Shown here piece by piece: positions 14,321 to 29,616 of a stretch of 64,000 nt of DNA. Made by a program: the position numbers and the translations under genes. The notes beneath the pieces are model-generated. The model had not been told where the DNA came from. It saw nothing but the letters and a program-made list of their open reading frames with translations, and ran no database searches. The stretch's first letter is position 1; each line of letters opens with the position of its first letter. The stretch comes from Rhodobacteraceae bacterium HLUCCA08. Lineage in GTDB: Bacteria; Pseudomonadota; Alphaproteobacteria; Rhodobacterales; Rhodobacteraceae. Location: positions 1-64,000 of the forward strand of contig LJSF01000022.1 in assembly GCA_001314655.1 (NCBI GenBank). Reading direction: 5' to 3'.

Positions 14321-14417
14321 CGGATGGCTCCTTTGCGGTGCTGGCCGCATTTCTGCCATAACGGATGAATTTCCGCAATCACGGATTCCAGCGTGGCGGA
14401 GTTCCGTCCGTCAGACG

Positions 14418-14975
14418 TCACCCGCCCTTGACCACGAGGAACGCCCGCGCCGCCCCTTCGGCCTGCAGGCAATGCGGGACATCCGCGGCGTAGCGCGCGG
14501 TTTCGCCGGCCTCGACCCGTTCCCTCCCCTCGCCGCTGGTCACGATGATCGCGCCCTCGATCACCGTCAGGTTCTCCTGGGTGCCATGCCCGTGCGGCGC
14601 CGATGCAAGCCGCCCGTTCTCGGCGAAGCGCAGGTCGTAGACTTCGTGCGTGCCGGCGTCTTCGGGCGGCGACAGGATGCGGATCGCGCAGCCGGTTCCG
14701 TGGTTCTCGATCGTCGGAACATCCTGCGCGCGCAGCACCTCGACCGGGCGTGGCGGCTGGTCGTCCAGCAGACCGGCGAAATCCACCTGCAGGGCGCGCG
14801 TCAGGTTCCACAGCGTCGACACCGTGGGCGAGGAATTGCCGCGTTCGATCTGGCTGACCATGCTGCGCGACACGCCCGACAGCCGGGCCACCGCATCCAG
14901 CGACAGGCCCCTTGCCTGGCGCGCCTTTCTCAGACGCTCCGGCAGCAGTGACAGGATCGAGTCGGCGTTCTCCAT
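14418..14975 (-). CDS. XRE family regulator with C-terminal cupin domain
   Basis: A 185-residue regulator. The N-terminal helix-turn-helix (residues about 10-66) includes RGLSLDAVARLSGVSRSMVSQIERG, and the C-terminal cupin (about 100-182) includes the metal-site-like HGHGTQENLTVIEG. Such proteins sense small molecules through the cupin. It lies about 100 bp upstream of kbl-tdh on the same strand and could be co-transcribed with them or control them. The start is the ATG at 14973-14975; no strong ribosome-binding site is seen, and the only upstream in-frame start is a TTG at 14996. Confidence 0.88.
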   Translation of the reverse strand: MENADSILSLLPERLRKARQARGLSLDAVARLSGVSRSMVSQIERGNSSPTVSTLWNLTRALQVDFAGLLDDQPPRPVEVLRAQDVPTIENHGTGCAIRILSPPEDAGTHEVYDLRFAENGRLASAPHGHGTQENLTVIEGAIIVTSGEGRERVEAGETARYAADVPHCLQAEGAARAFLVVKGG

Positions 14976-14979
14976 TATC

Positions 14980-14996
14980 TTGGAACCTAGGACCAA
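14980..14996. promoter_or_regulatory. candidate operator just upstream of the XRE-cupin gene
   Basis: TTGGAACCTAGGACCAA has TTGG/CCAA ends and a CCTAGG palindrome inside. It ends 4 nt before the regulator start codon, where an autorepressor could sit. Only one copy was noticed, so this rests on symmetry and position alone. Confidence 0.35.
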
Positions 14997-15051
14997 GGCG
15001 GCGTGAATGCAGCAGGAAAATGCACCCTTCCCGGCCCGCCGCCGGGCCGGT

Positions 15052-15459
15052 TCAGGGCGCGCGCCACAGCCGGCCGCGCTGCCACACCGGGGTCAGAAGC
15101 GCCTGGTCCCCGGCCGTCAGCCCGACCGAGGCGTCGCGCGCCTCCTGGCCCGGATAGCCGATGGCATGGCGGACCTGCGGCGCCATGAAATAGGCGTTGC
15201 CCACCGCAACCGCGAGCGCCTCGAACCCGTCCCGGTCCGCCTGCGCGGCGGCGTCGAGCCCGGCCATGTCGGCGACATCGCGCGCCGCCGCACAGAACCG
15301 CCCGAGCGGCCCCGACAGCTGCGGCGCATGGGCCAGCACCCGGTCCAGCGGCGCGCCCTGCAGCGAAATCCGCGCGGCCGAGGGCATGCCGGCCCCGCCC
15401 GGCACCATCAGCGCGGCCAGGCGCGCCAGGGTCGCGCGATCTTCGGCCGTCAGGGTCAT
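15052..15459 (-). CDS. gluconate 2-dehydrogenase subunit 3-like small protein
   Basis: A 135-residue protein opening LTAEDRATLARLAALMVPGG, which matches the small-subunit family that accompanies GMC flavoproteins such as gluconate 2-dehydrogenase and fructose dehydrogenase, and containing AVGNAYFMAPQVRHAIGYPG in its second half. Family members usually start with a Tat signal and are periplasmic; this one has none, so a cytoplasmic complex is likely. It overlaps the GMC gene by 4 nt and is the last gene of the leftward LacI-controlled operon. It probably stabilises the GMC subunit. Confidence 0.7.
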   Translation of the reverse strand: MTLTAEDRATLARLAALMVPGGAGMPSAARISLQGAPLDRVLAHAPQLSGPLGRFCAAARDVADMAGLDAAAQADRDGFEALAVAVGNAYFMAPQVRHAIGYPGQEARDASVGLTAGDQALLTPVWQRGRLWRAP

Positions 15460-17045
15460 GCCACCTCCAGCCCGGCCCGGGTGTCGATCAGGTTCAGGAC
15501 CGAGCGCGCGGCCACGGCCATGATCGTCGCGGTCGGGTTCATCCCCGAAGAGGTCGGAAAGGTGCTGCCATCCATGACATGGAGGTTCGGCACGTCATGG
15601 CAGCGGCCATATTCGTCGGTCACGCTGGTTTCGGGATCGGCGCCCATCACGGCGGTGCCCATCAGGTGCCAGCCGCAATCGCGGATCAGGCGGGTTTCGG
15701 CGATCTCGACCGCGCCCGCGGCCTGCATCGCCTCGCGGGCGCGGGCGACGTGGAAATCGAGCATCCGGCGGGTATTGTCCGACACCCGATACGCGATCCG
15801 TGGCGCCGGCAGGCCGTCGCTATCGGTCAGGTCGTCGGCCAGGCGGACGCGGTTGTCGGGATCGGGCAGGTCCTCGCCGATGATGCCCCATTCGAAGGAC
15901 CGTCCGAAACTGGCCCGGGTGCGGGCATGAAAGGCCGGCCCCCAGGCGTCGGTCAGCGGCCCGTTGCCATAGCCGGCGCGAAACCCCTGGGGGCCGCCGG
16001 CGGGCATGCAGTTCCACTTGGCCCCCCGCAAGAAGCCCCGGCTGGCATCGGTTTCGTAGAATTCGCACGAGGTCAGGATCTGCCCGGCCGGGCCGACCCA
16101 GCTTTCGAGGTCGTCGTCGAAACGGCCCGCCACGGTGGCGAAGGGATGCATCATCAGCCGCCGTCCGACCAGGCCCGAGCGGTTGGCCAGCCCCGAGGCC
16201 AGCAGCAGACGCGGCGTGCCGACCCCGTTGGCGCACAGGATCACCACATCGGCGGCCAACCGGTGCCGCGCGCCCTGCCGGTCGACCCAGATCACGCCGC
16301 TGGCCCGGCCCTGCGCGTCGGTTTCGATCCGCACGACACGGGCGCCGGTCAGCAGCCGCGCGCCGCGGGCCAGGGCATCGGGCCAATGGGTCCGGTCGGG
16401 CGTCGCCTTTGCGCCATCGGAACAGCCGGTGCCGCAGGTGCCGCGCAGCACGCAAGGCTGCAGCCGCCGCCAGGGCCGCGACGGGATCGCGTTGGAACCG
16501 GGCCACCAATGCCAGCCCAGCCGGTTCATCCCCGCCGCCGCCCGGCGCCCGACCCGCCCGATCGGCAGCGCCGGCAGCGGGGTCGGCGCGCCGTCGGGAT
16601 AGGCCGGGTTGCCGTCTTCGCCCGACACGCCCATCGCCTCTTCGACATAGGCATAGAACGGGGCCAGGTCGTCATAGCCGAAGGGCCAGTCCTCGGCCAC
16701 GCCGTCCAGGCTGCGGACCCGGAAATCCGACGGCATGAACCGCATCCAATGCGCGCCATAGATCAGCGCCGCCCCCCCGACCCCGGCGAACATCAGCGGG
16801 TTGACGTCCGACGCGGCGGTGTCGATCGGGTAATCCTCTGGCCGGCCGCGGATGTTCGGGTTCGGGTGCCATTGCTTCAGCTGGGTCAGTTCCCATTCCG
16901 GGCGCGCGCCGTCGAATGCCTCGGCCGGGACCCAGTCGCCCTGTTCCAGCACGGTCACGCCGATGCCCGCGGAAACCAGTTCCAACGCGGCCACCGCCCC
17001 CGACGGGCCGGAGCCGACGATGGCGACCTCGGTCCGGTCGGTCAC
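15456..17045 (-). CDS. GMC family oxidoreductase (gluconate 2-dehydrogenase large-subunit type)
   Basis: A 529-residue FAD enzyme. The FAD motif VGSGPSGAVAALEL is at the N-terminus, GVGGAALIYGAHWMRF follows, and the C-terminal active-site region has CGWHLMGTAVMG (catalytic His) and TSSGMNPTATIM (Asn). The CVLRGTCGTGCSDGAK cluster of cysteines is like that of gluconate 2-dehydrogenases. The GTG at 17043-17045 overlaps the Rieske gene by 4 nt; an upstream extension lies inside that gene. No export signal is present. It likely oxidises a hydroxyl of a sugar or cyclitol, passing electrons to a partner, perhaps the adjacent Rieske protein. Confidence 0.85.
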   Translation of the reverse strand: MTDRTEVAIVGSGPSGAVAALELVSAGIGVTVLEQGDWVPAEAFDGARPEWELTQLKQWHPNPNIRGRPEDYPIDTAASDVNPLMFAGVGGAALIYGAHWMRFMPSDFRVRSLDGVAEDWPFGYDDLAPFYAYVEEAMGVSGEDGNPAYPDGAPTPLPALPIGRVGRRAAAGMNRLGWHWWPGSNAIPSRPWRRLQPCVLRGTCGTGCSDGAKATPDRTHWPDALARGARLLTGARVVRIETDAQGRASGVIWVDRQGARHRLAADVVILCANGVGTPRLLLASGLANRSGLVGRRLMMHPFATVAGRFDDDLESWVGPAGQILTSCEFYETDASRGFLRGAKWNCMPAGGPQGFRAGYGNGPLTDAWGPAFHARTRASFGRSFEWGIIGEDLPDPDNRVRLADDLTDSDGLPAPRIAYRVSDNTRRMLDFHVARAREAMQAAGAVEIAETRLIRDCGWHLMGTAVMGADPETSVTDEYGRCHDVPNLHVMDGSTFPTSSGMNPTATIMAVAARSVLNLIDTRAGLEVA

Positions 17046-17353
17046 GGCAGATCGACCAGGACGCGACCGTTCACCACCCGCGCCGGATAGGTCGCCAGGT
17101 CGATGCAGACCGGCGCACCCAGCGCCTTGCCGGTGCGGATGTCGAAACGCCCGTTGTGGCGCGGGCATTCGATCACGTGTTCCATCACCAGCCCGTCCTC
17201 CAGGTGCACCTGTTCATGGGTGCACAGCCCGTCGGTGCAATAGACCTCGTCCCCGGTGATCCGGTAGATCGCATAGCTGTGCCCGCCGTGATCGAAGCGC
17301 AGCAGATCCTCTTCGTCGATCTCGTCCAGCCCGCAGGCGTCGATTTCGGCCAT
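17042..17353 (-). CDS. Rieske-type [2Fe-2S] ferredoxin, MocE-like
   Basis: A 103-residue single-domain Rieske protein. The cluster ligands are visible as CTHEQVHL (Cys44, His46) and CPRHNGRFD (Cys63, His66). Similar proteins (MocE of rhizopine catabolism, and ferredoxins of aromatic dioxygenases) carry electrons to an oxygenase. It lies between the membrane-desaturase-like gene and the GMC gene, and another potential partner, a P450, is in the divergent arm of the same locus. No dedicated reductase gene was found nearby. Confidence 0.9.
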   Translation of the reverse strand: MAEIDACGLDEIDEEDLLRFDHGGHSYAIYRITGDEVYCTDGLCTHEQVHLEDGLVMEHVIECPRHNGRFDIRTGKALGAPVCIDLATYPARVVNGRVLVDLP

Positions 17354-17372
17354 GTCGGTCCCCCTTCCCGCC

Positions 17373-18467
17373 CTATTCCGCGGCCTGGCCCATCGGCCCG
17401 TAACGCGGCGCCCCGGCGCCGGGCGGCAATTGCGGACGGATGAAATGATGCGGGTCGCGCAGCTGGCGAACCACGCAGGGCACGATCTCGCGCCAGGCCG
17501 CCCAGAGCGAGCGCGCGGCAGGCGGACAATCGTGTTTCACCGCCTCGTGCAGGTCGGGCAGGCGGTGATAGGGCACCATCGGGTACATGTGGTGCTCCAT
17601 ATGGTAGTTCATGTTCCAGTAGACGAAGCGCAGCACCCGGTTCATGTGCACCGTGCGGCTGTTGAGCCGGTGGTCCAGCACGTCCTCGGCCAGGCCCAGA
17701 TGCTGCGGCAACCCCATCACCAGCAACAGCCAGATCCCGTAGAACCGCGGCAATCCGATCAGCATCGCCGGCAGGATCGAGCCGGCGGCGATACAGGCGA
17801 TCAGCGTGGCGCCGTAGATGCCCATGTGGATGCGGGCGGCCCGCACCGCCTTCGGCCGTTCGCTGTCGGGAACGTAATCGGCCTCGTCCGGGGCGAGCCG
17901 CCCGAGGGCATTGCGCACCAGCGCGGCAAAGCTTTGCGGCACCGAAACCAGCCCGAGGAAATTCAACCCGATGACGATCAGTTGCGGCGGCCGCATGCCA
18001 CTGATTTCCGGATCGCGCCCGACGATGATCGTATCGGTGTGATGGCGCGCATGGGACCAGCGCCAGACCACCGGATTGCGCATCATCAGGAAACTGGCGA
18101 TCTGATAGACGACATCGTTCATCCAGCGGGTGCGGAACGCGGTGCCGTGGCCGCATTCATGCCAGCGGCTGTCCGCGGCCGAAGCATAAAGCACGCCATA
18201 GACCAGGAACACCGGCACCGCCCACCCGCTGCCCCAGAGCGCGATGCCCGCCGCGCCGGTCGCCCCCAGCAGGCCCAGCCAGAGCGCGGTGTCGCGCAGG
18301 GCGGGGCCGTCGGCGCGCTGCATCAGCGCCTTCAGCCGCTTGCGGTCGACCGGCGTGCGATACCAATCGGCATTGGCCAGCCCGGCCGCGACCGCCTTCT
18401 GTGCCTCGGGGCCGGTCAGGCTGTAGCTGCGGTCCATCGGAAAGGTGATCAGTTTCATCAGACCCAT
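17373..18467 (-). CDS. membrane fatty-acid-desaturase-type di-iron oxygenase, MocD-like
   Basis: A 364-residue membrane protein with the three histidine boxes of the desaturase/hydroxylase superfamily: HECGH (103-107), HARHH (139-143) and HMEHH near residue 290, separated by hydrophobic stretches. These hold a di-iron site that activates oxygen to hydroxylate, desaturate or demethylate. MocD, of the same type, is tied to rhizopine (3-O-methyl-scyllo-inosamine) use together with MocE. Here too it is followed by a MocE-like Rieske gene. It starts 3 nt after the PanB-like gene. Lipid modification is the alternative, but a catabolic operon argues against it. Confidence 0.85.
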   Translation of the reverse strand: MGLMKLITFPMDRSYSLTGPEAQKAVAAGLANADWYRTPVDRKRLKALMQRADGPALRDTALWLGLLGATGAAGIALWGSGWAVPVFLVYGVLYASAADSRWHECGHGTAFRTRWMNDVVYQIASFLMMRNPVVWRWSHARHHTDTIIVGRDPEISGMRPPQLIVIGLNFLGLVSVPQSFAALVRNALGRLAPDEADYVPDSERPKAVRAARIHMGIYGATLIACIAAGSILPAMLIGLPRFYGIWLLLVMGLPQHLGLAEDVLDHRLNSRTVHMNRVLRFVYWNMNYHMEHHMYPMVPYHRLPDLHEAVKHDCPPAARSLWAAWREIVPCVVRQLRDPHHFIRPQLPPGAGAPRYGPMGQAAE

Positions 18468-18470
18468 CGG

Positions 18471-19265
18471 TCACACCCCGGCCTTGCGTTGATCCAGCGC
18501 CGTCTGAAAGGCGCGCCATTCGGTCGGGGCCATGCCCACCGTTTCGGTCGGCGCCGGAAAGGCGCCGGTCCGCACATCGTCGCGAAACTCCGAGAAGGCG
18601 GCGATGCGCGCGGCCTGGAGCCGGGCATGTTCGGCCGCGAAATCGCGATAGGCCCGGGCGTGACGCGGCAGCTTGCCCAGGGTTTCGCCCAGCACATCGA
18701 CCGCGAACAGGTATTGCACGTCGCAGCCCGCGCCCGAGCCCATGGAAATGACCGTCAGCGGCGTCGCCGCGCTGATCGCGCCGGCGACCGGTTCGGGCAC
18801 CACCTCCATCTCGACGGCAAAGGCGCCGGCGGCTTCGTAGCGGCGCACATCGTCAAGCACGCGCAGCGCCTCTTCGGCGGTCTTGCCGACGGCGCGGAAC
18901 CCGGTCCAGCGCGCTTTCTGCGGGATCAGCCCGACATGGCCGACGACCGGGATCGCGTCCTTGGCCATGGCTTCGACGATGTCGAAATTCATCGCGCAAT
19001 AGATGCTGTCGGCGCCGGCCTCCATCGCCTCGAAGGCGGCGCGGCGGGCCTCGTCGGCCGTCGCGTGGTGGCCATAGACCAGCCCGAAACAGAAATGGGT
19101 ATCGGGCGCGGCGGCGCGACAGGCGGCCCGGTTGGCGCGATTGCCCGACACGATCATGTCGATCCCCGCCGCCTCGGCCGCGGCGGCCTGTTCGGCACTG
19201 GCGACGTTCAGCTCCACCAGTTGCCGCTTGCCCTTGAGGGCGCGGATATCGCCGACGCTCAGCAT
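18471..19265 (-). CDS. PanB-like (ketopantoate hydroxymethyltransferase family) protein, divergent
   Basis: A 264-residue TIM-barrel protein. VVGHVGLIPQ and the later AGAFAVEMEVVPEPVAGAIS align with the corresponding PanB segments, keeping the catalytic-base Glu (E of MEVVP). By eye, the three PanB metal ligands (Asp45, Asp84, Glu114 in E. coli) are not kept: the DSLG segment is replaced by GNRAN, and the other two positions lack acidic residues. It is therefore probably not a pantothenate enzyme but a member of the PEP-mutase/isocitrate-lyase-like superfamily acting in catabolism. The start overlaps the LacI gene by 7 nt; the frame is open further upstream but only inside that gene. Confidence 0.75.
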   Translation of the reverse strand: MLSVGDIRALKGKRQLVELNVASAEQAAAAEAAGIDMIVSGNRANRAACRAAAPDTHFCFGLVYGHHATADEARRAAFEAMEAGADSIYCAMNFDIVEAMAKDAIPVVGHVGLIPQKARWTGFRAVGKTAEEALRVLDDVRRYEAAGAFAVEMEVVPEPVAGAISAATPLTVISMGSGAGCDVQYLFAVDVLGETLGKLPRHARAYRDFAAEHARLQAARIAAFSEFRDDVRTGAFPAPTETVGMAPTEWRAFQTALDQRKAGV

Positions 19266-20305
19266 CCGCGGCCCGCCCGCGGCGGGGGCATGTCGCTTTC
19301 GCGCAAGACCAGTTGCGCGTCGATCAGCTCCTGCAGCCGCGGCCCCTCGCCGCGCAGCTTGTTCAGCACCATCCGCCCCATCCGCATGCCCAGCGCATCG
19401 AGGTTCTGGCTGAACGTGGTCAGCGGCGGCTGCGCGGCGCCGGCCATCGGCATGTCGTCGCAGCCGATGACCGAGATGTCGCGGCCCGGTTCCAGCCCGA
19501 AACTGCGCATCGCCTCGATCGCCGACAGGGCGATCATGTCGTTGCCGCAGAACACCGCCGTCGGATCCGCCCCCGAGGTGATCAGCTGCGTCATCGCATC
19601 GGCGCCGGTGCGGCGCGACAGGAAACACTCGACCTCGAGCGCCGGGTCATGGGCGATCCCGGCCTTGGCCAGGGCGGCGCGATAGCCGTCGCGGTTGTGG
19701 TGCGAATAGGTGTAGCGATAGGGCGTCGACAGATAGGCGATGCGGGTATGGCCCAGCCGGATCAGCCGTTCGGTCGCCCTCTGCCCGATGCGGCGGTGAT
19801 CCCGGTCGATCCAGTCGTGATCGTTGCGCAGGGTCTGGCCGATGGTGACGAAGGGAAAGCCGCGCTCCTGCAGGTAGTCGATCCGCTCGTCCTCGGGGCG
19901 GGTGCGGCCGAACAGCAGCGCGTCGCAGCGGTTGCGTTCGACGGTGCGCCGGATGATGTCGATCTCGGTCTCGAATTCGCGGGCCATGACCACCTGCAGG
20001 TCATAGCCCTGGGCCTGCAGCACCATCTCGACCCCGTCGAGCAGGCCCAGAAAGAACGGGTCGACGAATTTGGTCCAGGGCTTGGACACCATGAAGGTCA
20101 CGGTCTGGGTCTGGTTCGAACGCAGCGTGGCGGCCGCGAAACTGGCCCGGTAGCCCAGGGTTTCGGCGGCCTGCTCGACCTTCTTTCGGGTGTCGGCATT
20201 GACGTCGTCATAGCCGTTCAACGCCCGGCTGACGGTCGAGACCGACAGGCCCGTATGCGCCGCGACATCGCGGATATTGGGCTTGCGCTGGGCGGGTTCG
20301 GTCAT
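19259..20305 (-). CDS. LacI family transcriptional regulator
   Basis: A 348-residue repressor. The N-terminal helix-turn-helix is NIRDVAAHTGLSVSTVSRALNG, followed by the hinge region (GYRASFAAATLRSN) and a periplasmic-binding-protein-like sugar-sensing domain ending at VIGCDDMPMAGAAQPPLTT. The start is the ATG at 20303-20305, overlapping the GH13 gene by 4 nt. It is embedded in the leftward operon it most likely controls, together with the divergent transporter operon, through two CCAAAAACGTTTTTGG palindromes. The inducer is probably a sugar or glycoside taken up by the neighbouring ABC system. Confidence 0.93.
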   Translation of the reverse strand: MTEPAQRKPNIRDVAAHTGLSVSTVSRALNGYDDVNADTRKKVEQAAETLGYRASFAAATLRSNQTQTVTFMVSKPWTKFVDPFFLGLLDGVEMVLQAQGYDLQVVMAREFETEIDIIRRTVERNRCDALLFGRTRPEDERIDYLQERGFPFVTIGQTLRNDHDWIDRDHRRIGQRATERLIRLGHTRIAYLSTPYRYTYSHHNRDGYRAALAKAGIAHDPALEVECFLSRRTGADAMTQLITSGADPTAVFCGNDMIALSAIEAMRSFGLEPGRDISVIGCDDMPMAGAAQPPLTTFSQNLDALGMRMGRMVLNKLRGEGPRLQELIDAQLVLRESDMPPPRAGRGC

Positions 20306-21858
20306 CGGGCGGCCTCGGCGATCCAGTAGGAATGCGGGGCCAGCATACCGCCCTCGGCCGCCCCCGCCAGCGTGCGGCCATTGGGCATCAGCGGCACCGG
20401 GCGGGGCGCCGCGCCCAGGTTGAAGCTGCACAGCACGCTCTGCCCGTTCAGCCGCCGCCAGAAGGTCAGACCGTCGGTTTCGGCCTCGACGGTTTCGAAA
20501 TCACCCGCGCGCAGGGCGGGCGTGGCGCGCCGCAGGGCGATCATCTTGCGGCAATGGGCCAGGTCCGAGCCCGGATCGCCCGTCTGCCGCGCCACGCAAA
20601 GCGGCGCATGGGCGGGTTCGGCCGGCAGCCAGCCCTCGGCCCGCGAAAAGCCCAGGCCCGGGGCCTCGTCCCAGGGCATCGGCGTGCGGGCCCCGTCGCG
20701 GCCGCGATGGTTGGGCCAGAACCGGATCGCCTCCGGATCCTGCAGGCGGGCGCGCGGCACATCGCTGTGCGGCAGGCCCAGTTCTTCGCCCTGATACAGA
20801 ATGACCGTGCCGCGCAAGGCCATCAGCAGCGCCTGCAGCACCTTGACCCGCTGCGCGCCCCAGCGGCTGGCGACACGGGTGACGTCATGGTTGGAAAACG
20901 CCCAGGTCGGCCAGCTGTCCCCGGCCCCGGCCAGTTCGACCGTGCGGGCGATATGGGCGCCGTCCAGAACCGGCCCCAGCAATTCGAAACTGTAGGCGGT
21001 GTGCAACCGGCCCGGCGCGGTATATTCGGCCATCCGGTCGACCTGCCAGTCGCAGCTGATCTCGGCCAGCAGCATCCGGTCGCCGGCGACCGCGCGCATC
21101 CGTTCCAGAAACGGCAGGTTTTCCGGCCGCGACCGGTCATACAGCCGTTGCTGCAGGTAATAGGGATTGGCCGGACGTTCGGAAACCGGGGCCGGCGGAT
21201 TGTCCCGCAACAGCGGGTCGTGCATGAAGAAATTGGCCACGTCCAGGCGCAGCCCGTCGACGCCCATGTCGAACCAGAACCGCATGATATCAAGCACTTC
21301 GTCCTGAACCTCGGGATTGTGCAGGTTCAGGTCGGGCTGTTCGATCATGAAATTGTGCAGGTAATACTGCTTGCGCGCCGCGCACCATTCCCAGGCGATC
21401 CCGCCGAACCGCGCCAGCCAGTTGTTGGGCGGCCCGCCATCGGGTTTCGGATCGGCCCAGACATACCAGTCGGCTTTCGGCCCGTGCCGCGCGGCCGCGC
21501 TGTCGACGAACCACGGATGCAGGTGCGAACTGTGCGAATAGACCTGGTCGATCACCACCCGCAGACCCATCCCATGGGCGGCCTCGACCACGGCGCGGAA
21601 CTGGTCGAGCGTGCCGAAACGGGGATCGACGGCACGGTAATCGGACACGTCATAGCCCGAATCGAACATCGGAGAGGGGAAGAACGGCGTGATCCACAAC
21701 CCGTCGACGCCCAGGTCGCGCAGGTAATCCAGCCGCGACAGCAGCCCCGGCAGATCGCCTTCGCCATCGCCGTCGGAATCCTGGAACGACCGCAGGTAGA
21801 CCTCGTAGAGGCAGGCCCCGCGCCACCAGTCCCGTTCCGCTTCGCACCCTGTCGCCAT
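20302..21858 (-). CDS. GH13 family alpha-glucosidase-type glycoside hydrolase
   Basis: A 518-residue cytoplasmic enzyme of the oligo-1,6-glucosidase/alpha-glucosidase branch. The catalytic residues are visible: nucleophile Asp206 (DGLRLDVANFF), acid/base Glu266 (LLAEISCDW) and Asp325 (FSNHD). The N-terminal ACLYEVYLRSFQDSDGDGEGDL is typical of the family, including a calcium-binding-like DSDGDGEGD. The ATG at 21856-21858 has GAGGGC upstream; the frame is open to 22254 but that part crosses the control region. It is first in the leftward operon and would release glucose, or a related sugar, from an imported glycoside. Confidence 0.9.
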   Translation of the reverse strand: MATGCEAERDWWRGACLYEVYLRSFQDSDGDGEGDLPGLLSRLDYLRDLGVDGLWITPFFPSPMFDSGYDVSDYRAVDPRFGTLDQFRAVVEAAHGMGLRVVIDQVYSHSSHLHPWFVDSAAARHGPKADWYVWADPKPDGGPPNNWLARFGGIAWEWCAARKQYYLHNFMIEQPDLNLHNPEVQDEVLDIMRFWFDMGVDGLRLDVANFFMHDPLLRDNPPAPVSERPANPYYLQQRLYDRSRPENLPFLERMRAVAGDRMLLAEISCDWQVDRMAEYTAPGRLHTAYSFELLGPVLDGAHIARTVELAGAGDSWPTWAFSNHDVTRVASRWGAQRVKVLQALLMALRGTVILYQGEELGLPHSDVPRARLQDPEAIRFWPNHRGRDGARTPMPWDEAPGLGFSRAEGWLPAEPAHAPLCVARQTGDPGSDLAHCRKMIALRRATPALRAGDFETVEAETDGLTFWRRLNGQSVLCSFNLGAAPRPVPLMPNGRTLAGAAEGGMLAPHSYWIAEAAR

Positions 21859-21882
21859 CTGCGCCCTCGCTCGACTCAGGTC

Positions 21883-21902
21883 AACCAAAAACGTTTTTGG
21901 TT
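21883..21902. promoter_or_regulatory. LacI-family operator 1 (perfect 20-bp palindrome)
   Basis: AACCAAAAACGTTTTTGGTT is a perfect 20-bp palindrome with the central CG usual for LacI-type operators. It lies 24 bp upstream of the GH13 start codon, in the promoter region of the leftward operon. A second copy lies 117 bp away, centre to centre. Confidence 0.85.
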
Positions 21903-21961
21903 TTCCGGTCAAGCGCCCTTCGGCGCACCGGCAGAAATTCCGTGACAGGTCCAGAATCCTC

Positions 21962-21991
21962 TTGACGAACCCCGTTCTTCGGAAAAATGAT
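21962..21991 (+). promoter_or_regulatory. probable sigma-70 promoter of the rightward transporter operon
   Basis: TTGACG at 21962-21967 and AATGAT at 21986-21991 are spaced by 18 bp, a fair sigma-70 match. The second operator begins 10 bp after the -10 box, so bound repressor would cover the start of transcription. The assignment is by consensus only. Confidence 0.55.
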
Positions 21992-22001
21992 CCGGGCAGG
22001 G

Positions 22002-22017
22002 CCAAAAACGTTTTTGG
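22002..22017. promoter_or_regulatory. LacI-family operator 2 (perfect 16-bp palindrome)
   Basis: CCAAAAACGTTTTTGG is identical to the core of operator 1. It lies 43 bp before the binding-protein start codon and just downstream of the probable promoter. The two operators are about 11 helical turns apart, which would allow a repression loop covering both divergent promoters. Confidence 0.85.
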
Positions 22018-22060
22018 TCTCTGGCGCGGCCCCTCCGCGCCGATGTCCAGGGAGGAAACC

Positions 22061-23050
22061 ATGCGTAACATCGCAAAGATCATGCTCGGCGCGGCCTCGG
22101 CCATCGCCCTGGCGGCCGGCGCCGCCAGCGCCCAGGAGGACGGCTGGTGTTCGGACCAGACCATCCGCGTCTTTTCCGGCGGTCCGGCGGGCGGCGCCTT
22201 CAATTCGATCATCGACCGCGGCGCGCTGCAGGCCGCGGCCGATACCGGCGCCAATGTCGAGATCGTCTATTCGGAATGGGATTTCGACAAGATGGTCACC
22301 CAGTTCCGCGAGGCGATCAGCCAGCGCCCCGACGGGATCGCCATGATGGGCCATCCCGGTGACGATGCGCTGATGCCGCTGGCCGCCGAAGCCGAAGCCG
22401 CCGGCATTCCGGTCATGTACATGAATGTCGACGTCCCCGAGATCCGCGCCCGCTTCGGGTCGGGCTATGTCGGTGCGACGCTCTATGCCCAGGGCCAGGC
22501 CCTCGGGGCGGAAACCCTGCGCCTGGCCGGCGACAATATCGGCCCCGGCGACAAGGCGGTGGTCATGAGCCGCTGGGAATCGGAGAACCGCGCCCAGCGC
22601 GAGCTTGGCCTGGTCGACGCGCTGGAAGCGGCCGGGATCGAGGTCATCAAGCTGCAGGAGGCCGAGGGCGCCTCGGCCGACCAGATGCTGCAACTGCCGG
22701 TCCTGACCTCGACCCTTTTGTCGAACCCCGACGTCAAGCTGATCGGCTATCCGGGCGGCCCCTGGCTGTCGGCGGCGCCGGTCTTCATGGGCGCGGTCGG
22801 CAAGGAAGCGGGCGAGATCATCGGCGTCGGCTTCGACCTGGGCCAGGGCGTGATGACCGCCTTCGAGAGCGGGCACGTGCTGGTCACCTCGGACCAGCAG
22901 CCCTACCAGCAGGGCTACCTGCCGGTGCTGTCGCTGTGCCAGCAGCTGGTCTACCAGCTGGGCCCGCTGAACGTCGATACCGGCGCCGGTTTCGTCACCG
23001 TCGACAATTACCAGGACGTGGCGCCGCTGGCCGAGGCGGGTCTGCGCTAG
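22061..23050 (+). CDS. sugar ABC transporter substrate-binding protein (RbsB/FrcB-like)
   Basis: A 329-residue periplasmic protein with a Sec signal (MRNIAKIMLGAASAIALAAG, probable cleavage after ASA). The mature part has the type-I periplasmic binding fold seen in ribose/fructose/xylose-binding proteins: ISQRPDGIAMMGHPGDDAL is the loop recurrent in the family. GGAGG lies 5 nt before the ATG. It is first in the rightward operon and would bind the sugar or glycoside whose breakdown the locus encodes. Confidence 0.9.
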   Translation: MRNIAKIMLGAASAIALAAGAASAQEDGWCSDQTIRVFSGGPAGGAFNSIIDRGALQAAADTGANVEIVYSEWDFDKMVTQFREAISQRPDGIAMMGHPGDDALMPLAAEAEAAGIPVMYMNVDVPEIRARFGSGYVGATLYAQGQALGAETLRLAGDNIGPGDKAVVMSRWESENRAQRELGLVDALEAAGIEVIKLQEAEGASADQMLQLPVLTSTLLSNPDVKLIGYPGGPWLSAAPVFMGAVGKEAGEIIGVGFDLGQGVMTAFESGHVLVTSDQQPYQQGYLPVLSLCQQLVYQLGPLNVDTGAGFVTVDNYQDVAPLAEAGLR

Positions 23051-23064
23051 CCACCCCTCCCGGG

Positions 23065-23095
23065 CGCGGCGGGCCGCCAGGCGTGGCCCGTCGCG
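23065..23095 (+). terminator. intercistronic hairpin after the binding-protein gene
   Basis: CGCGGCGGGCC (23065-23075) pairs with GGCCCGTCGCG (23085-23095) over 11 bp including one G-U pair, with a 9-nt loop and no U tract. It sits between the binding-protein and ATPase genes, as in the Pot-like and third sugar operons of this window, and may raise the level of the binding protein. Confidence 0.5.
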
Positions 23096-23121
23096 TTCCC
23101 TGTCCAAGGAAAGGAACCGTC

Positions 23122-23913
23122 ATGGCGGCCAATGACGAGCCGATCATCGAATTGCGCAACATCGTCAAGCGGTTCGGCAATGTCGAGGCGCTGTCCGGCG
23201 TCACCATGAACGTCCGCAAGGGCGAGGTGCTGGGCCTTCTGGGGGACAATGGCGCGGGCAAGTCGACCCTGGTCAAGACCCTGGCCGGTGTCCACGACCC
23301 CGACGAGGGCGAGATCATCGTCAAGGGCAAGCCGCGCAAGCCCTGGACGCCCCTGGCGGCACGCGACGCGGGGATCGAAACGGTGTTCCAGGACCGTGCC
23401 CTGGCGCCGCAGCATTCGATCGTGACCAACATTTTCATGGGCCGCGAGATCACCAACTGGCTGGGCCTGACCCAGGTCCGGCAACAGATCGACGAGGCCA
23501 ACCGGCTGATGCGCGAGATCGGCTTCACCTCCAAGGTGTTCAACCCCGAATCCACCGTCGGCCATCTGTCGGGCGGCGAACGCCAGGGCGTGGCCATCGC
23601 CCGCGCGCTTTACAACCAGGCCGACGTGATCGTGCTGGACGAACCCACCACCGCCCTGTCGCTGACCGAAACCCAGAAGGTGTTCCGCTTTGTCGAGGCG
23701 GTGAAGGCGTCCGGGCGCACGGTGATCTTCATCGGCCACAACATCTACCATGTCTGGGAAATCGCCGACCGGTTCTTCGTCATCGACCGCGGCCGCGAGG
23801 CCTTCGAGGGCGAAAAGGCGCAGTTCAAGGGCGCCGACCACCTGATCGAGATGATGCACCAGCTGGCCGAAACCGGCCGGGCGGACACCGCCACCCTGAA
23901 ACAACCCGCCTGA
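23122..23913 (+). CDS. sugar ABC transporter ATP-binding protein, single domain (FrcA-like)
   Basis: A 263-residue ATPase with Walker A GDNGAGKST, signature LSGGERQGVAIARAL, Walker B VIVLDEPTTALS and a switch-type His in FIGHNIYHVWE. It has a single nucleotide-binding domain, like FrcA and unlike the double-domain RbsA/MglA proteins. AAGGAA precedes the ATG. It powers the permease encoded 10 nt downstream. Confidence 0.9.
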   Translation: MAANDEPIIELRNIVKRFGNVEALSGVTMNVRKGEVLGLLGDNGAGKSTLVKTLAGVHDPDEGEIIVKGKPRKPWTPLAARDAGIETVFQDRALAPQHSIVTNIFMGREITNWLGLTQVRQQIDEANRLMREIGFTSKVFNPESTVGHLSGGERQGVAIARALYNQADVIVLDEPTTALSLTETQKVFRFVEAVKASGRTVIFIGHNIYHVWEIADRFFVIDRGREAFEGEKAQFKGADHLIEMMHQLAETGRADTATLKQPA

Positions 23914-23923
23914 GGAGACGCAG

Positions 23924-24979
23924 ATGAGCGACGCGACCCCCGCCGCCGCCAAGCCGCCCGAGGCCGATGCCAGCGCCGTCGACGCCCGCCGGGAACAATC
24001 CACCTGGTTCCGGTTCTACCGGCGCAACGGGCGGGCGCTGAACGCCTTCATCACCCTGGTGCTGGTCTGGGGCTTTTTCGCCGTGAACAACCCGGTGCTG
24101 TTTCTCAACCCGATCTTCTACGGCGCCTTCCTGTTTTCGGTGCCGGCGACCGTGTTCCTGACAACGGCGCTGGTCTTCGTCATCGTGTCCGGTGAACTGG
24201 ACCTGGCCTTTCCCTCGGTCGTCGGCGCCGCCGGCGGGGTGTTCATGTATATGGTGATGAACGGTTTTCCCGTGCTCGGCGCCTTCGGCCTGACGCTGCT
24301 GTTCGGGGCGGTGATCGGCTTGGGGATCGGGCTGATCGTGGTCTACGGCAGGATTTCGTCGCTGGTCGCGACGCTGGGGCTGAACTTCTTCATCCTCGGC
24401 ATCGTCAACCTGCTGGCCCAGGGCCGCACCATCACCGCGCCCGCGGCGGTCGACACCTTCGGCTACCGCCTGTTCGTCGGCAAGTGGGAGCTGTTCGGCA
24501 CCGGCCTGCAGGTGCCGATGCATTTCGTCTGGTGCCTGGTCTGGACCGTCTTCTGCTGGGTGCTGTTCAAGTATCACCGCTTCGGCGTCCGGGTGCAGCT
24601 GGTCGGCGACAATTCCGACAGCGCCCGCCAGATGGGCATCAACGTGGAGCGGATCCGCGTCGGCGTCTTCGTCTTTTCCGGCATCGCCGCGGCGATCACC
24701 GGCGCGGTGCTGGTGCAGATGGCGAACATGGTCTGGTTCCCGACCTCCGGCAAGGCCTACCTGCTGATCGCGCTGGCCGCATTGTTCGTGGGCGGCACCC
24801 CGACCTGGGGCGGGGTCGGCACGATCTTCGGCGCCTTCTTCGGCGCGCTGACCGTGACGCTGATCCCCTCGGGCGCGGTCGCCGCGGGATTTGCCGGGTT
24901 CTGGACCGATTTCCTGTTCGGCCTGGTGATCATCCTGACGATGATCGCGCACCGGTTCTCGGGCGCGCGGGTGCGCTAG
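23924..24979 (+). CDS. sugar ABC transporter permease (FrcC/RbsC-like)
   Basis: A 351-residue permease with a polar N-terminus of about 35 residues and 8-10 hydrophobic segments. Family landmarks are FVIVSGELDLAFPSVVG, YGRISSLVATLGLNFFILGI and AVGDNS-like LVGDNSDSARQMGIN. Together with the preceding ATPase and binding protein it forms a carbohydrate importer of the CUT2 class. The stop lies 1 nt before the next gene. Confidence 0.9.
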   Translation: MSDATPAAAKPPEADASAVDARREQSTWFRFYRRNGRALNAFITLVLVWGFFAVNNPVLFLNPIFYGAFLFSVPATVFLTTALVFVIVSGELDLAFPSVVGAAGGVFMYMVMNGFPVLGAFGLTLLFGAVIGLGIGLIVVYGRISSLVATLGLNFFILGIVNLLAQGRTITAPAAVDTFGYRLFVGKWELFGTGLQVPMHFVWCLVWTVFCWVLFKYHRFGVRVQLVGDNSDSARQMGINVERIRVGVFVFSGIAAAITGAVLVQMANMVWFPTSGKAYLLIALAALFVGGTPTWGGVGTIFGAFFGALTVTLIPSGAVAAGFAGFWTDFLFGLVIILTMIAHRFSGARVR

Positions 24980-24980
24980 G

Positions 24981-25694
24981 ATGGCGCTCGCGGTCATCAC
25001 CGGTGCCGCCGGCGGGATCGGCGGCGCCATCGCCCGGGCCTTCGGCGCGGCGGGCTATGATCTGGCGCTGCTGGACCGGGCGGCGATCGACCGGCCCGGG
25101 GCGACCTGCATCGCGCTCGACCTGACCGACCCGGCGGCGGTGGCCGGCGCCTTCGAGCGGATCGATGCGGGCCACGACCGGATCGACGCGCTGATCAACG
25201 TCGCCGGCATCAACCACCGCGCCCCGGTCCGCCGGATGGCGGTGGCCGACTGGGACCGGATGATGGACGTCAATGTCGGCCACATGTTCCTGACCGCGAA
25301 ACACGCCCTGCCGCGCATGGGCCCGGGCGGCGCTATCGTCAACATGGGCTCGATCTCGGGCCATGTGGCGACGCCGGATTACCCGGCCTACGTCACCACC
25401 AAGGCGGCGGTGGAAAGTTTTACCTTCGCCCTGGCGCAAGAGGTCGGCGGGCGCGGCATCCGGGTCAATGCCCTGGCCCCGGGCTGGGTCGATGCGGGCT
25501 TCACCGAGGCCGCCCTGGCCGAAGCCGCCGATCCCGGCACGATCCACGCCGCCGCCCGCGCGGCGCATCTGCTGGGCCGCATGGCCGATCCCGACGAGGT
25601 GGCCGATGCCGCGCTCTGGCTGGCCTCGCCCGAGGCATCCTTCGTCACCGGCCAGACGCTGTTCGTCGATGGCGGCCTGATGAGGAAGCACTGA
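24981..25694 (+). CDS. SDR family oxidoreductase (first of a tandem pair)
   Basis: A 237-residue classical short-chain dehydrogenase. It has the NAD(P) motif TGAAGGIGGAIA, NVAGINHR (NAG-type motif), catalytic Ser in GSISGHV and YPAYVTTKAA (YxxxK). It would oxidise or reduce a hydroxyl/keto group of a sugar, cyclitol or P450 product. It starts directly after the permease gene, and its stop overlaps the next SDR by 1 nt. It shares the plan, but only part of the sequence, of that neighbour. Confidence 0.9.
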   Translation: MALAVITGAAGGIGGAIARAFGAAGYDLALLDRAAIDRPGATCIALDLTDPAAVAGAFERIDAGHDRIDALINVAGINHRAPVRRMAVADWDRMMDVNVGHMFLTAKHALPRMGPGGAIVNMGSISGHVATPDYPAYVTTKAAVESFTFALAQEVGGRGIRVNALAPGWVDAGFTEAALAEAADPGTIHAAARAAHLLGRMADPDEVADAALWLASPEASFVTGQTLFVDGGLMRKH

Positions 25695-26395
25695 TGGCCG
25701 CGCTGACCGGACAGATCGCGATCACCGGCGGGGCGGGCGGCATCGGCGCCGCCTGCGCGCGCGCGGTCCGGGCCGCGGGCGGCGTGCCGATCAGCCTGGA
25801 CCTGCAGGCCAACCCCGACTGCGACAGCCACGTCGTCGATGTCTCGGACGACAGCGCCATGGCAAGGGCCCTGGCCCGGATCGGCCCGCTGTCGGGCCTG
25901 GTCTGCATCGCCGGCACCAATGCCCGCGGCCGGGTCGAGGACCTGTCCTGGGACGCCTGGCGCCGGGTCATGGCGGTCAATGTCCGCGGCACCATGCTGG
26001 CGATGAAACATGCCCGGCTGCGCGATGGCGGGGCCATGGTCCTGACCGCGTCGGTCTCGGCCCATATCGGCTGCGACGGCTATACGGCCTATCACACCTC
26101 CAAGGGGGCGGTACTGGGGCTGATGCGGGCGACCAGCGGCGAATTCGCGCCGCGCGGGATCCGCGTGAACGCGGTCAGCCCCGGCTGGGTCGACACGGCC
26201 TTCACCGACCGGGCGCTGGCCGAGCTGCCCGATGGCGCGGCGATCCGCGACAGCGCCGGCGCGGCGCATATCCTCGGGCGCATGGCGCGGCCTGCGGAAA
26301 TCGCGGATGCCATGGTCTTTCTGCTGTCGGACCGGGCCCGGTTCATCACCGGAACCGAACTGGTCGTCGATGGCGGCTTTCTGAGGAAGCGATGA
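25694..26395 (+). CDS. SDR family oxidoreductase (second of a tandem pair)
   Basis: A 233-residue short-chain dehydrogenase with TGGAGGIGAACA at the N-terminus, catalytic SVSAHIGCDGYTAYHTSKGA (Ser, YxxxK) and the FITGTELVVDGGF C-terminal motif. The start codon overlaps the stop of the previous gene (TGATG), and the end overlaps the P450 gene by 4 nt, so the three are translationally coupled. A second dehydrogenation in the same pathway is likely. Confidence 0.9.
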   Translation: MAALTGQIAITGGAGGIGAACARAVRAAGGVPISLDLQANPDCDSHVVDVSDDSAMARALARIGPLSGLVCIAGTNARGRVEDLSWDAWRRVMAVNVRGTMLAMKHARLRDGGAMVLTASVSAHIGCDGYTAYHTSKGAVLGLMRATSGEFAPRGIRVNAVSPGWVDTAFTDRALAELPDGAAIRDSAGAAHILGRMARPAEIADAMVFLLSDRARFITGTELVVDGGFLRKR

Positions 26396-27537
26396 CCGGC
26401 CCGGCCGATACCTTCGCCTTTGCCCGCGCCGCCGGCGGCTATGCGGGCGATGTCGCGGGCGAGGCGATCCCGGTCCTGACCGGATACCGCGCGGTGCGCG
26501 AAGCGGCCGGTGACTGGCAGGCGCTGTCGAATGACGCCCCGGGCCGGATCCAGATCCCGGCCGAGGACGATATCCGCAGCCTGCGCCAGCTTCCGATCGA
26601 AACCGACCCGCCACGGCACTCCGCGCTCAAGGCCCTGGTGCAGGACTGGTTCCGCCGTCCGCGCAGCGATCCGGCGGTGCGGGCGGGGATCGAGGCGGTC
26701 GTCGCCAAGGCGCTCGACGCGCTGCCCGAGGGGGCCGAGGTCGACGCGCTGCAGGCGCTCGCCCTGCCGATCCAGTCGCGCGCGCTGGCGGTGCTGCTGG
26801 GCCTGCCCCTGGCCGAGGCCGAAGGCTGGATCGGCTGGGGCCTGCATGCCTTCAAGACCGCCACCGGCAACGATCCCGCCGCCGCCGACCGCCTGTTGCG
26901 GATGATCGAGGCCCATGCCGACCGCGCCCTGTCCCGGGGCGGCGACGATTTCTTCGGCCACCTGGCGCGCGCCCGGCTGGGGGACCGGCCCCTGAGCCGG
27001 GACGAAATCATCGGGTTCGCCCATGTCACCTTTGCCGGCGGGCGCGATACGCTGATCCTGTGCATCGCCGCGGCGCTGGCCCATTTCGCCCGGGCGCCCG
27101 AAGACCTCGACCGGCTGCGCGACGGGCAGGGCGCCATCCCCCTGGCCGTCGAGGAGATCTTTCGACACACCTCGCCATTGACCCATATCGGCCGGATCTG
27201 CACGCGGCCGGTCTCGCTGGCGGGGCTGGACCGCGGGCCGGGCGACCGGGTCGCCCTGTGCTGGGCCGCCGCCAACCTGGACCCCGAGCGCTTCGACGAC
27301 GCCGCGACCCTGCGCATCGACCGCGCCCCGAATCCGCATGTGGCCTTCGGATCGGGTCCGCATGCCTGCCTTGGCGCCACCCATGCGCGCGAGGTGCTGC
27401 GCGCCCTGGTCGCGGGGCTTGCCACCCGGTTCCGGCGGATCGCGCCGGTCGACATCACCGAGGGAAGTCGCAGCATCGGCGGGCCCGAACTGCGCCACGG
27501 ATTTGACCGCCTTTGCCTGCGTTTCCACAGAAAGTGA
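26392..27537 (+). CDS. cytochrome P450
   Basis: A 381-residue soluble bacterial P450. The heme-ligand loop FGSGPHACLGATHAR places the thiolate at Cys326; the K-helix ExxR is Glu255/Arg258 (EEIFR); the I-helix oxygen-activation motif AGGRDT has Asp219/Thr220. It resembles the CYP101/CYP108-like soluble class that needs a ferredoxin and a reductase; none is adjacent, though a Rieske ferredoxin is encoded in the divergent arm. Sitting amid sugar transport, SDR and glycosidase genes, it may hydroxylate or O-demethylate a glycoside or its aglycone, as known for P450s acting on 6-O-methyl-galactose. Confidence 0.93.
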   Translation: MTGPADTFAFARAAGGYAGDVAGEAIPVLTGYRAVREAAGDWQALSNDAPGRIQIPAEDDIRSLRQLPIETDPPRHSALKALVQDWFRRPRSDPAVRAGIEAVVAKALDALPEGAEVDALQALALPIQSRALAVLLGLPLAEAEGWIGWGLHAFKTATGNDPAAADRLLRMIEAHADRALSRGGDDFFGHLARARLGDRPLSRDEIIGFAHVTFAGGRDTLILCIAAALAHFARAPEDLDRLRDGQGAIPLAVEEIFRHTSPLTHIGRICTRPVSLAGLDRGPGDRVALCWAAANLDPERFDDAATLRIDRAPNPHVAFGSGPHACLGATHAREVLRALVAGLATRFRRIAPVDITEGSRSIGGPELRHGFDRLCLRFHRK

Positions 27538-27543
27538 CCCGCC

Positions 27544-29616
27544 ATGCCCGAGACCTATAGCCGCGACGGTTCCGCCCTGGTCATCCGCTTCAACGGCGAA
27601 ACCATCCGCATCGAACCCTGGGGTCCGGACGCCTTGCGCCTGCGGGCCCGGCCGGGCGGCACGGTGATCGAGCCGCATGTTTCGGCACTGCTCGACGCCG
27701 CGCCCGCCACCGCCGATATCGCCATCGACGGCGCCCATGCCCGGATCACCAACGGCCGCATCCGCGCCGAGGTCCGGCTGGCCCGCCGGCTGGGGGCCGA
27801 TGTCGCGAAAGAACCCGAGATCCGCTATGTCCGCAGCGATACCGGAGCCGAGCTTCTGGCCGAGACGCGCAGCCATTTCGCCGGCCCCTCGCCGCGCAGT
27901 TTCAAGGCGCTGGCCAGCGGGTCGTTCCAGCTCGAGGCGCGGTTCCGGGCCTATCCGGACGAACGGCTGATGGGCCTTGGCCAGCCGCAGCACGGGCTCG
28001 AAGAGCTCAAGGGCACGTCGACCACGCTGGTCCAGCAGAACACCCATGTGGTGATCCCCTTCGTGCTGTCCTCGCGCGGCTACGGGTTCCTGTGGAACAA
28101 CCCGGCCACCGGGCGCGCCGATTTCGCCACCAACGGCACCCGCTGGCTGGCCGATGCGACGCCGGGGCTGGATTACTGGATCTGCGCCGGCGACAGCCCG
28201 GCCGAGATCCTGTCGACCTATGTCGCGGCCACCGGGATGCCCCCGGCCCTGCCCGACTGGGCCACCGGGTTCTGGCAATGCAAATTGCGCTATCGCAGCC
28301 AGGCCGAAATCCTGGACGTGGCCCGCGAATACCGGCGCCGCAACCTGCCGCTGTCCTGCATCGTGATCGATTTCTTCGCCTGGACCCGGCAGGGCGAATG
28401 GCAGTTCGACCCCGCCGACTGGCCCGACCCCGCGGGCCTTGTGCGCGACCTGGCCGAGATGGGGATCAAGACCATCGTGTCGATCTGGCCCACGGTCTCG
28501 GCCAATGCCGAAACCTACACCGAGATGCGCGAAAAGGGCTATCTGCTGCGCACCGAACGGGGCGTGCCGGTGGTGATCCAGTTCCCCGACAAGGACCCCT
28601 ACGGCATCCATTTCCTGACCTATTACGACCCGTTCAACCCCGAGGCGCGCGATTATCACTGGGACCGGGTGCAAAGCGGCTATGTCGACAAGGGGGTCAC
28701 CAATTTCTGGCTCGATGCCTGCGAGCCCGAGATGCGCCCGGCCCATGCCGACCATGTCCGCACCCATCTGGGCAACGGGGCCGAGATGCTGTCGGCCTTT
28801 CCGCTGCTGCATGCCGGCCGCTATGCCGAGGGGCTGAAGGCGGCGGGCGCCGAGGATGCGGTGCTGCTGTGCCGCTCGACCTGGGCCGGGGGGCAGCGGT
28901 TCCCGACGATCCTGTGGTCCGGCGATGTCTGGTCCACCTGGGCGGATTACCGCGCCCAGATCGCCGCCGGGCTGCATGCGGCGATGTCGGGGATCGGCTG
29001 GTGGACCACCGATATCGGCGGCTTCTACGAAGGCCACCGCGACAATCCCGCGTTTCACGACCTGCTGGTCCGCTGGTTCGAATTCGGCGTGTTTTCCCCG
29101 ATCTGCCGGCTGCATGGCGTGCGGGTGCCCAACGGCGTGCCCTATGCCGCCCCCGATGGCGAGGTCGATTACGGCAAGGAGCTGTTCCACGTCTTCACCG
29201 ATACCGGCGGCGACAACGAGGTCTGGTCCTATACCCCGGACTTGCTGGCGATCTTTACCGACCTGCTGGCGCTGCGCGAACGGCTGCGGCCCTATCTGCA
29301 GGCGGCCTTCGCGGCCTACAGCGCCACCGGGGTTCCGCCGATGCGGCCGATGGGCTTTGCCTTTCCCGACCAGCCCGGGCTTGCCGGCCAGGGCGCCTTC
29401 CTGCTGGGCGACGACCTGCTGGTGGCCCCGGTGCTGGAGCCCGGCGCGACGACGCGCGCGGTCGATCTGCCCACGGGCGAGACCTGGGTCGCGGCCTGGA
29501 CCGGGCACAAGCATGACGGCGGCACGCGGCCCGACGTCGCGGCGCCACCGGGGCGGATCCCGGTCTTTTGCCGGGCCGGGTCCTGGGATCGGTTGCGGCC
29601 GGTCTTTCACCCCTGA
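27544..29616 (+). CDS. GH31 family alpha-glycosidase (alpha-glucosidase/xylosidase type)
   Basis: A 690-residue cytoplasmic glycosidase. After an N-terminal beta-sandwich come the (beta/alpha)8 barrel motifs: CIVIDFFAWTRQGEW, nucleophile Asp391 in WLDACEPE and acid/base Asp461 in WSGDVWSTW, then GIGWWTTDIGGF. No signal peptide is visible. It is the last gene of the rightward arm, 6 nt after the P450 gene, and 10 nt from the convergent Gfo/Idh/MocA gene. With the GH13 enzyme it would give the locus two alpha-glycoside-cleaving activities. The exact sugar is not readable. Confidence 0.92.
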   Translation: MPETYSRDGSALVIRFNGETIRIEPWGPDALRLRARPGGTVIEPHVSALLDAAPATADIAIDGAHARITNGRIRAEVRLARRLGADVAKEPEIRYVRSDTGAELLAETRSHFAGPSPRSFKALASGSFQLEARFRAYPDERLMGLGQPQHGLEELKGTSTTLVQQNTHVVIPFVLSSRGYGFLWNNPATGRADFATNGTRWLADATPGLDYWICAGDSPAEILSTYVAATGMPPALPDWATGFWQCKLRYRSQAEILDVAREYRRRNLPLSCIVIDFFAWTRQGEWQFDPADWPDPAGLVRDLAEMGIKTIVSIWPTVSANAETYTEMREKGYLLRTERGVPVVIQFPDKDPYGIHFLTYYDPFNPEARDYHWDRVQSGYVDKGVTNFWLDACEPEMRPAHADHVRTHLGNGAEMLSAFPLLHAGRYAEGLKAAGAEDAVLLCRSTWAGGQRFPTILWSGDVWSTWADYRAQIAAGLHAAMSGIGWWTTDIGGFYEGHRDNPAFHDLLVRWFEFGVFSPICRLHGVRVPNGVPYAAPDGEVDYGKELFHVFTDTGGDNEVWSYTPDLLAIFTDLLALRERLRPYLQAAFAAYSATGVPPMRPMGFAFPDQPGLAGQGAFLLGDDLLVAPVLEPGATTRAVDLPTGETWVAAWTGHKHDGGTRPDVAAPPGRIPVFCRAGSWDRLRPVFHP

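Follow-up and report, generated by a model that had tools for sequence, protein, structure and literature searches.

Conserved paired palindromes as predicted operators of a LacI-family repressor between two divergent glycoside gene arms in Alphaproteobacteria

Do two divergent gene arms of an alphaproteobacterial genome share one repressor, and does this repressor hold its two operators together in a DNA loop? The question is raised by a 64,000-nucleotide stretch of contig LJSF01000022.1 from Rhodobacteraceae bacterium HLUCCA08 (hereafter the window), in which the palindrome CCAAAAACGTTTTTGG occurs twice between the arms, one copy beside each. The original prediction was that the pair makes the arms a single LacI regulon, with looping repression of all 14 genes and autoregulation of the repressor. 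Most work on repression loops concerns a handful of E. coli operons, and this locus offers a simple test case outside enterobacteria. We analysed the window, its genome, and the relatives of the locus. The reading that the results favour, and to which we give a probability of about 0.8, is that the palindromes are operators of the local LacI protein, that they are placed at both promoters, and that a GalR-like loop probably joins them.

The palindrome pair and the two gene arms

A pattern search found perfect copies of CCAAAAACGTTTTTGG at 21885-21900 and 22002-22017, the sole matches in the window at up to three mismatches, and reproduced the expected geometry: 117 bp separate the two centres, and the first copy widens to a 20-bp perfect palindrome (AACCAAAAACGTTTTTGGTT, 21883-21902). 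We refer to these unstranded sites as operator 1 (left, 21883-21902, core 21885-21900), which lies 26 bp before the first start codon of the left arm, and operator 2 (right, 22002-22017, 16 bp). Both are even palindromes of 16-22 bp with a central CG, the form that passages of PMC4052901 give as the rule for LacI-type sites, with a central CG for 1173 of 1303 factors. Shuffled sequences gave two matches in 0 of 100 cases (mean 0.05, largest 1). Searching the whole 3.7-Mb genome (45 contigs), a check that could have exposed copies in unrelated regions, returned these two copies alone at up to two mismatches; one extra site at three mismatches is background (the reversed-pattern control gave 4). 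Any single perfect 16-bp palindrome is ordinary, as the window holds 7 of them versus approximately 2.8 expected from base composition. What is beyond chance is the repetition of an AT-rich pair, its placement, and its conservation. Chance palindromes are ruled out by the shuffles, by the co-occurrence with the LacI orthologue, and by the presence of the pair in relatives (see below).

The left arm (minus strand) starts with a gene for a GH13 alpha-glucosidase-type hydrolase (20302-21858). The LacI-family gene lies in this arm, as had been noted, and is its second gene (19259-20305, 348 aa); it begins within an ATGA that also contains the stop codon of the GH13 gene. It is followed by genes for a PanB-like protein of the ketopantoate hydroxymethyltransferase family (18471-19268), which scores under the NCBIfam PanB cut-offs (114.9 versus 272 bits, and 96 versus 207.55), a fatty-acid-desaturase-family protein (17373-18467), a MocE-family Rieske 2Fe-2S ferredoxin (17042-17353; TIGR02377, 156.9 bits for a cut-off of 136.15), a GMC oxidoreductase (15456-17045, start inferred from the frame and the overlap with the ferredoxin gene), and a small protein of 135 aa with no Pfam or NCBIfam match at E 0.001 (15052-15459). 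The right arm (plus strand) encodes a periplasmic sugar-binding protein (Peripla_BP_4, 22061-23050), a ribose-type ABC transporter ATPase (23107-23913, start approximate), a permease (BPD_transp_2, 23924-24979), two short-chain dehydrogenases (24981-25694 and 25694-26395, spanning 24981-26395), a cytochrome P450 (26392-27537), and a GH31 glycosidase (27544-29616). The predicted total of 14 genes is thus reached with seven per arm, provided that the ferredoxin gene is counted. The genes overlap or are separated by short gaps, which suggests that each arm is transcribed as a unit. Repressor control of the full 14 genes presupposes such transcripts, and the downstream genes differ among relatives.

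Relatives of the locus and confinement of the sites

A scan of contigs for LacI homologues revealed 21 loci, of which 18 are close orthologues (57-85% identity) and three are from Paenibacillus (30-31%). The palindrome pair is found upstream in 17 of the 18 close loci, as near-copies with 0-4 mismatches. In the remaining one (L027), the contig has only 82 bp ahead of the lacI match and stops short of the site; over positions 1-250 of this contig end, the lacI orthologue loses similarity across the DNA-binding domain, perhaps because of an assembly fault. A further close locus, from one further species (L056), also has the pair. The 17 close loci, L056, and the window make up the 19-locus set used below. 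The central CG is present in all 38 operators of this set and the CAAAA preceding it is nearly invariant. At the filter used, the Paenibacillus loci show one related perfect palindrome each (TCCAAAACGTTTTGGA, approximately 146 bp before the lacI match). Finally, a 42% homologue (L057, 4952-4988) has TCAAAATCGTTTCTGT and TCAAAAACGATTTTGT upstream of lacI, 21 bp apart. Two operator-like sites at 21 bp, and not at 117 bp, suggest that the arrangement of sites changed as the group evolved.

The gene content of the 18 close loci, several of which are on truncated contigs, varies: GH13 is found in 15, the binding protein in 16, the PanB-like protein in 14, the desaturase-family protein in 15, MocE in 12, P450 in 3, and GMC1 clearly in 1. 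The PanB-like gene adjoins lacI in 14 of these 18 loci; its role in a glycoside operon is perhaps one-carbon handling. In Histidinibacterium lentulum (L017), the 8 kb that follow lacI showed neither a PanB-like nor a desaturase gene. The lacI gene of this species had been flagged for a TGA, but this codon is its ordinary stop, after residue 341, and the gene is not broken. The orthologue is absent from all three congeners of the host, which makes the distribution of the locus patchy. Wider searches for the orthologue found it in 3 of 390 genomes of the order, all already known, and in 2 of 385 of the class, i.e., the window's own genome and G833, whose coordinates match those of L027. It was present in 2 of 17 genomes of the family of G833, 1 of 2 of the genus of G014, 2 of 7 of the genus of G274, and 7 of 8 of the genus of G201, these 7 being matched by contig coordinates to loci already known.

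We then used 295 genomes of the family to assess how far the sites are confined to this locus. The orthologue was detected in 7 of them (at E up to 1e-70), and the exact 16-mer in 4, all among these 7 and always at this locus; the reversed pattern gave one match, in one other genome. Allowing one mismatch to the 14-bp core, the 7 genomes with the orthologue contain 12 sites, every one of them at this locus, and the reversed-pattern control gave 1. A global regulon was rejected, as there are no further sites in the host genome at up to two mismatches or in these 7 genomes at up to one mismatch of the core. In the literature searched, one unrelated paper only, on yam genotyping, contains the palindrome or its 14-bp core. 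Among the papers listed, nothing on this locus came up under operator spacing and LacI-type looping, the matches for MocD and MocE were mostly unrelated, and no description of the LacI orthologous group was found, RegPrecise being outside the scope of the search. What we describe is a likely operator, and a likely complete single-locus regulon, for a LacI orthologous group that would control an unusual glycoside pathway.

Promoters, repressor, and the distance between operators

The promoter-like sequence TTGACG-N18-AATGAT that had been placed 10 bp before the second palindrome is indeed there, at 21962-21991 (plus strand), and a leftward -35 element (TTGACC) is predicted from the sequence at 21907-21912 (minus strand). 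As a match, the rightward promoter is at chance level: it is the only promoter-like match over 14000-31000 (17 kb), where shuffles give 1.3 on average. Its weight comes from conservation. In all 19 loci, operator 2 is preceded by a rightward TTGAC that begins 38-41 bp upstream of it (where several were present, we took the one nearest to 41 bp), and operator 1 has a leftward TTGAC at a distance of 6-7 bp. The weak -10 elements were positioned by eye. Judging from these offsets, operator 1 appears to sit between the leftward -35 and its expected -10, and operator 2 would cover roughly +5 to +20 relative to the predicted rightward transcription start, itself placed by inference. This conserved placement against both promoters supports the proposal that the divergent arms form one regulon.

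The protein of the window has an N-terminal LacI helix-turn-helix (PF00356) and a sugar-binding core (Peripla_BP_1/3), and is thus of the LacI/GalR family. Its recognition helix, SVSTVSRALNGY, is shared unchanged by 17 of the 18 readable proteins, window included (L027 is unreadable there and L056 was left out); the one of L030 differs by one residue (STSTVSRALNGY). The hinge leucine, which inserts at the central CG of the operator according to passages of PMC2978694, is present in all 18 close orthologues as well as in the protein of the window. The same source describes a tendency, not a strict one, of TVSR-type recognition helices to occur where the half-site has a G at position 6; with a numbering inferred from the lac site, this position is A in our operators. 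This departure counts against our reading, as do the relatedness of the orthologues and the patchy distribution of the locus. The departure would also fit a scenario in which the LacI protein has its sites elsewhere, and the palindromes serve an unrelated regulator or form structures in the transcript. We regard this scenario as very improbable: it is at odds with the strict co-occurrence of the palindromes with this LacI orthologue and with a motif, the even palindrome with a central CG, that is usual in the family (passages of PMC4052901), and a transcript structure is hard to reconcile with the position of operator 1, upstream of where its transcript would start judging from the -35. We infer that the sites are almost certainly bound by this repressor.

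Autoregulation is best supported by two loci. In L028 and L030, the interval from the pair to lacI contains no GH13 gene and is too small to accommodate any other; lacI therefore adjoins the pair. Since lacI directly follows the pair in these loci, the predicted autoregulation of the repressor is well supported. It is also common, being found in 72% of the LacI-family factors studied in PMC4052901, as stated in passages of that work. Both arms and lacI are very likely controlled by this repressor, and the comparisons indicate that the regulon is real, local, autoregulated, and of the LacI family.

The distance between operator centres in the 19 loci is 115 bp (1 locus), 116 (3), 117 (12), 118 (2), or 107 (1). 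The latter is the locus of H. lentulum (6297-6419), about one helical turn shorter. The two -35 elements are 47-51 bp apart in 18 loci and 40 bp apart in L017. On the LacI tree (18 tips, without L056, and with low support at some nodes), the mean squared contrast was 26.3 for the spacing versus 354.6 for the 5' leader of the right-hand binding-protein gene, with the starts of this gene set by a ribosome-site rule; the value for the spacing falls to 3.3 if L017 is counted as 10 bp longer. The offsets between operators and -35 elements compensate each other: the variance of the total is 0.6 versus 2.3 when permuted (P 0.0043, 11 lineages without L017). This test and the one-turn argument were both framed after the data had been seen. 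The DNA between the -35 elements had a mean ungapped identity of 0.332 versus 0.283 when shuffled (13 loci, 78 pairs, including two congeners that are the top pair). For the permutation and identity tests, seven closely related loci of Silicimonas and Boseongicola were treated as one. The ungapped test replaced gapped identities to the window, which were noisy (0.41-0.76 versus shuffled means of 0.55-0.61). A circular phase statistic was uninformative, with values of approximately 0.91-0.92 at each of seven helical repeats, and is not used as evidence. The length between the operators was kept while the sequence mostly changed.

One could account for these data without a loop if each repressor dimer blocked its own promoter and the promoter-to-promoter distance remained unchanged by happenstance. 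Each operator alone is placed to do so, one inside the leftward and the other directly downstream of the rightward promoter in 19 of 19 loci, and a loop is not needed for repression; this is a point against looping. The absence of a LacI-type C-terminal tail (see below) and the single site seen in each of the three Paenibacillus relatives, at the filter used, go in the same direction. Happenstance is nevertheless difficult to reconcile with a stretch between the -35s that is close to unalignable and has no evident function, yet keeps its length in all loci save for the 40 bp of one, whereas the 5' leader spans 21-62 bp. The compensation of the offsets, which keeps the total, also speaks against it. 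So do the sites of L057, 21 bp apart, a distance that passages of PMC4052901 ascribe to cooperative binding of LacI-type dimers; in the same work, the spacing of sites peaks at 13, 22, and 32 bp. We hold independent operators to be possible and clearly the less probable reading. Another explanation is that a further factor (a global activator, HU, or IHF) binds the middle DNA and fixes the promoter distances, with the repressor sites merely following. The conservation of the -35 to -35 distance itself could be explained in this way, but the scarcity of conserved sequence between the -35s (the identities above) makes such a factor unlikely. HU, as a sequence-unspecific bender in the middle DNA, would fit a GalR-type loop.

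The GalR-like loop thus has to be weighed on its geometry and on the protein. With an assumed helical repeat for the host, 117 bp is close to a whole number of turns (about 11) around the promoters, as in GalR-type looped pairs. In E. coli gal, according to passages of PMC4693257, spacings of 103, 113, 123, and 133 bp give the best repression, whereas with 108, 118, and 128 bp repression is lost. The poor performance of gal at 118 bp warns against taking 117 bp alone as in phase, and the repeat or the geometry may differ here. The argument for the loop is instead the constant spacing together with the jump of about one turn, a jump that is a single case (L017). Taken together, a loop sequence replaced many times, a kept length, and one change of nearly a full turn would be evolutionary evidence for looping of the GalR type. 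We consider it somewhat more probable than not that the loop forms in the cell.

The protein narrows the type of loop. The tetramerising helix of E. coli LacI is in its last residues, and the alignment of the window protein to it stops at residue 341 of 348 (332 of 360 in LacI), leaving 7 residues after its end versus 28 in E. coli LacI. No C-terminal tetramerising helix is thus found, which makes a tetramer of the lac type unlikely. Without the LacI tail, any loop would have to be GalR-like. We propose that a repressor dimer on operator 1, inside the leftward promoter, would shut this arm including lacI, and that another on operator 2, just downstream of the rightward -10, would shut the arm with the transporter and glycosidase genes. 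At a distance of 117 bp, or about 11 turns, the two dimers would probably touch and enclose both promoters in a loop, as happens with GalR. An inducer derived from an imported alpha-glycoside may then bind the repressor and release both arms together. In its most complete form, the proposal is that selection across around a dozen alphaproteobacterial lineages has kept in helical phase a GalR-style loop made by a protein without a tetramerising tail, with operators 11 turns apart, or 10 in one lineage, around DNA that changes. One such loop would shut the repressor gene together with both divergent operons of a pathway for an alpha-glycoside that is unusual and possibly O-methylated; we give this full version even odds.

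Known systems and the possible substrate

The E. coli lac operon also has a LacI-family repressor with more than one operator, and differs by the tetramerising tail that the window repressor lacks. The closest known mechanism is that of E. coli gal, where, in passages of PMC4693257, LacI/GalR-type dimers bind two 16-bp operators about 11 turns (113 bp) apart with two promoters inside. Here, in contrast, two operons are served by diverging promoters, each of which has its own operator, and the distance is mostly 115-118 bp. The AglR and ThuR regulons of Alphaproteobacteria resemble our locus in that local LacI-type factors control their own gene and a divergent operon (passages of PMC4052901). 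The ThuR motif given there (natcnAAAnCGnTTTngatt) shares the AAA-N-CG-N-TTT core with our operators, but its outer half-site does not fit. Identity with AglR was rejected, since its motif in the same source (nnntcAAAGCGCTTTgannn, tested as tcAAAGCGCTTTga) does not fit the operators. The gene content also differs from both, with a ribose-type transporter, GH31, MocE, and P450.

The genes suggest as substrate an alpha-glycoside needing oxidative trimming, perhaps O-demethylation, which we take as a lead only. This is because the locus combines the MocE protein, an inositol-2-dehydrogenase-like protein, and rhizopine-like and 6g5o-like proteins with two alpha-glycosidases. The top NCBIfam match of the sugar-binding protein is the rhizopine binding protein, far under the cut-off (78.8 versus 420 bits). 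The best solved relative of the GH31 enzyme is the alpha-xylosidase MeXyl31 (E 9e-177). That of the P450 is clearly 6g5o (E 1.6e-72, the next at 4.5e-39), which we take to be a 6-O-methyl-D-galactose demethylase P450. If so, the P450 of the window resembles that of the demethylase systems of marine Bacteroidetes, and the locus differs from them in that the P450 gene is found in only 3 of the 18 relative loci and that the ferredoxin is of the MocE type. The 6-O-methyl-D-galactose demethylase P450 system of marine Bacteroidetes is described in passages of PMC10033563. No ferredoxin reductase gene was identified in the two arms. The MocE ferredoxin gene beside the desaturase gene (17042-18467) and the 6g5o-like P450 (26392-27537) in a glycosidase locus point to a possible O-demethylation of a methylated sugar or cyclitol.

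The genes flanking the arms deserve mention. The right arm is faced, at 29627-32322 on the minus strand, by two convergent genes, one inositol-2-dehydrogenase-like and the other encoding a GMC protein that is choline-dehydrogenase-like. The former (29627-30634) is barely above the inositol 2-dehydrogenase cut-off (355.2 versus 355), and there is no operator copy near these genes at up to three mismatches. Just past the left arm, at 12090-14996, genes for a threonine dehydrogenase and a glycine C-acetyltransferase are found with an HTH-cupin regulator, and probably form a separate operon.
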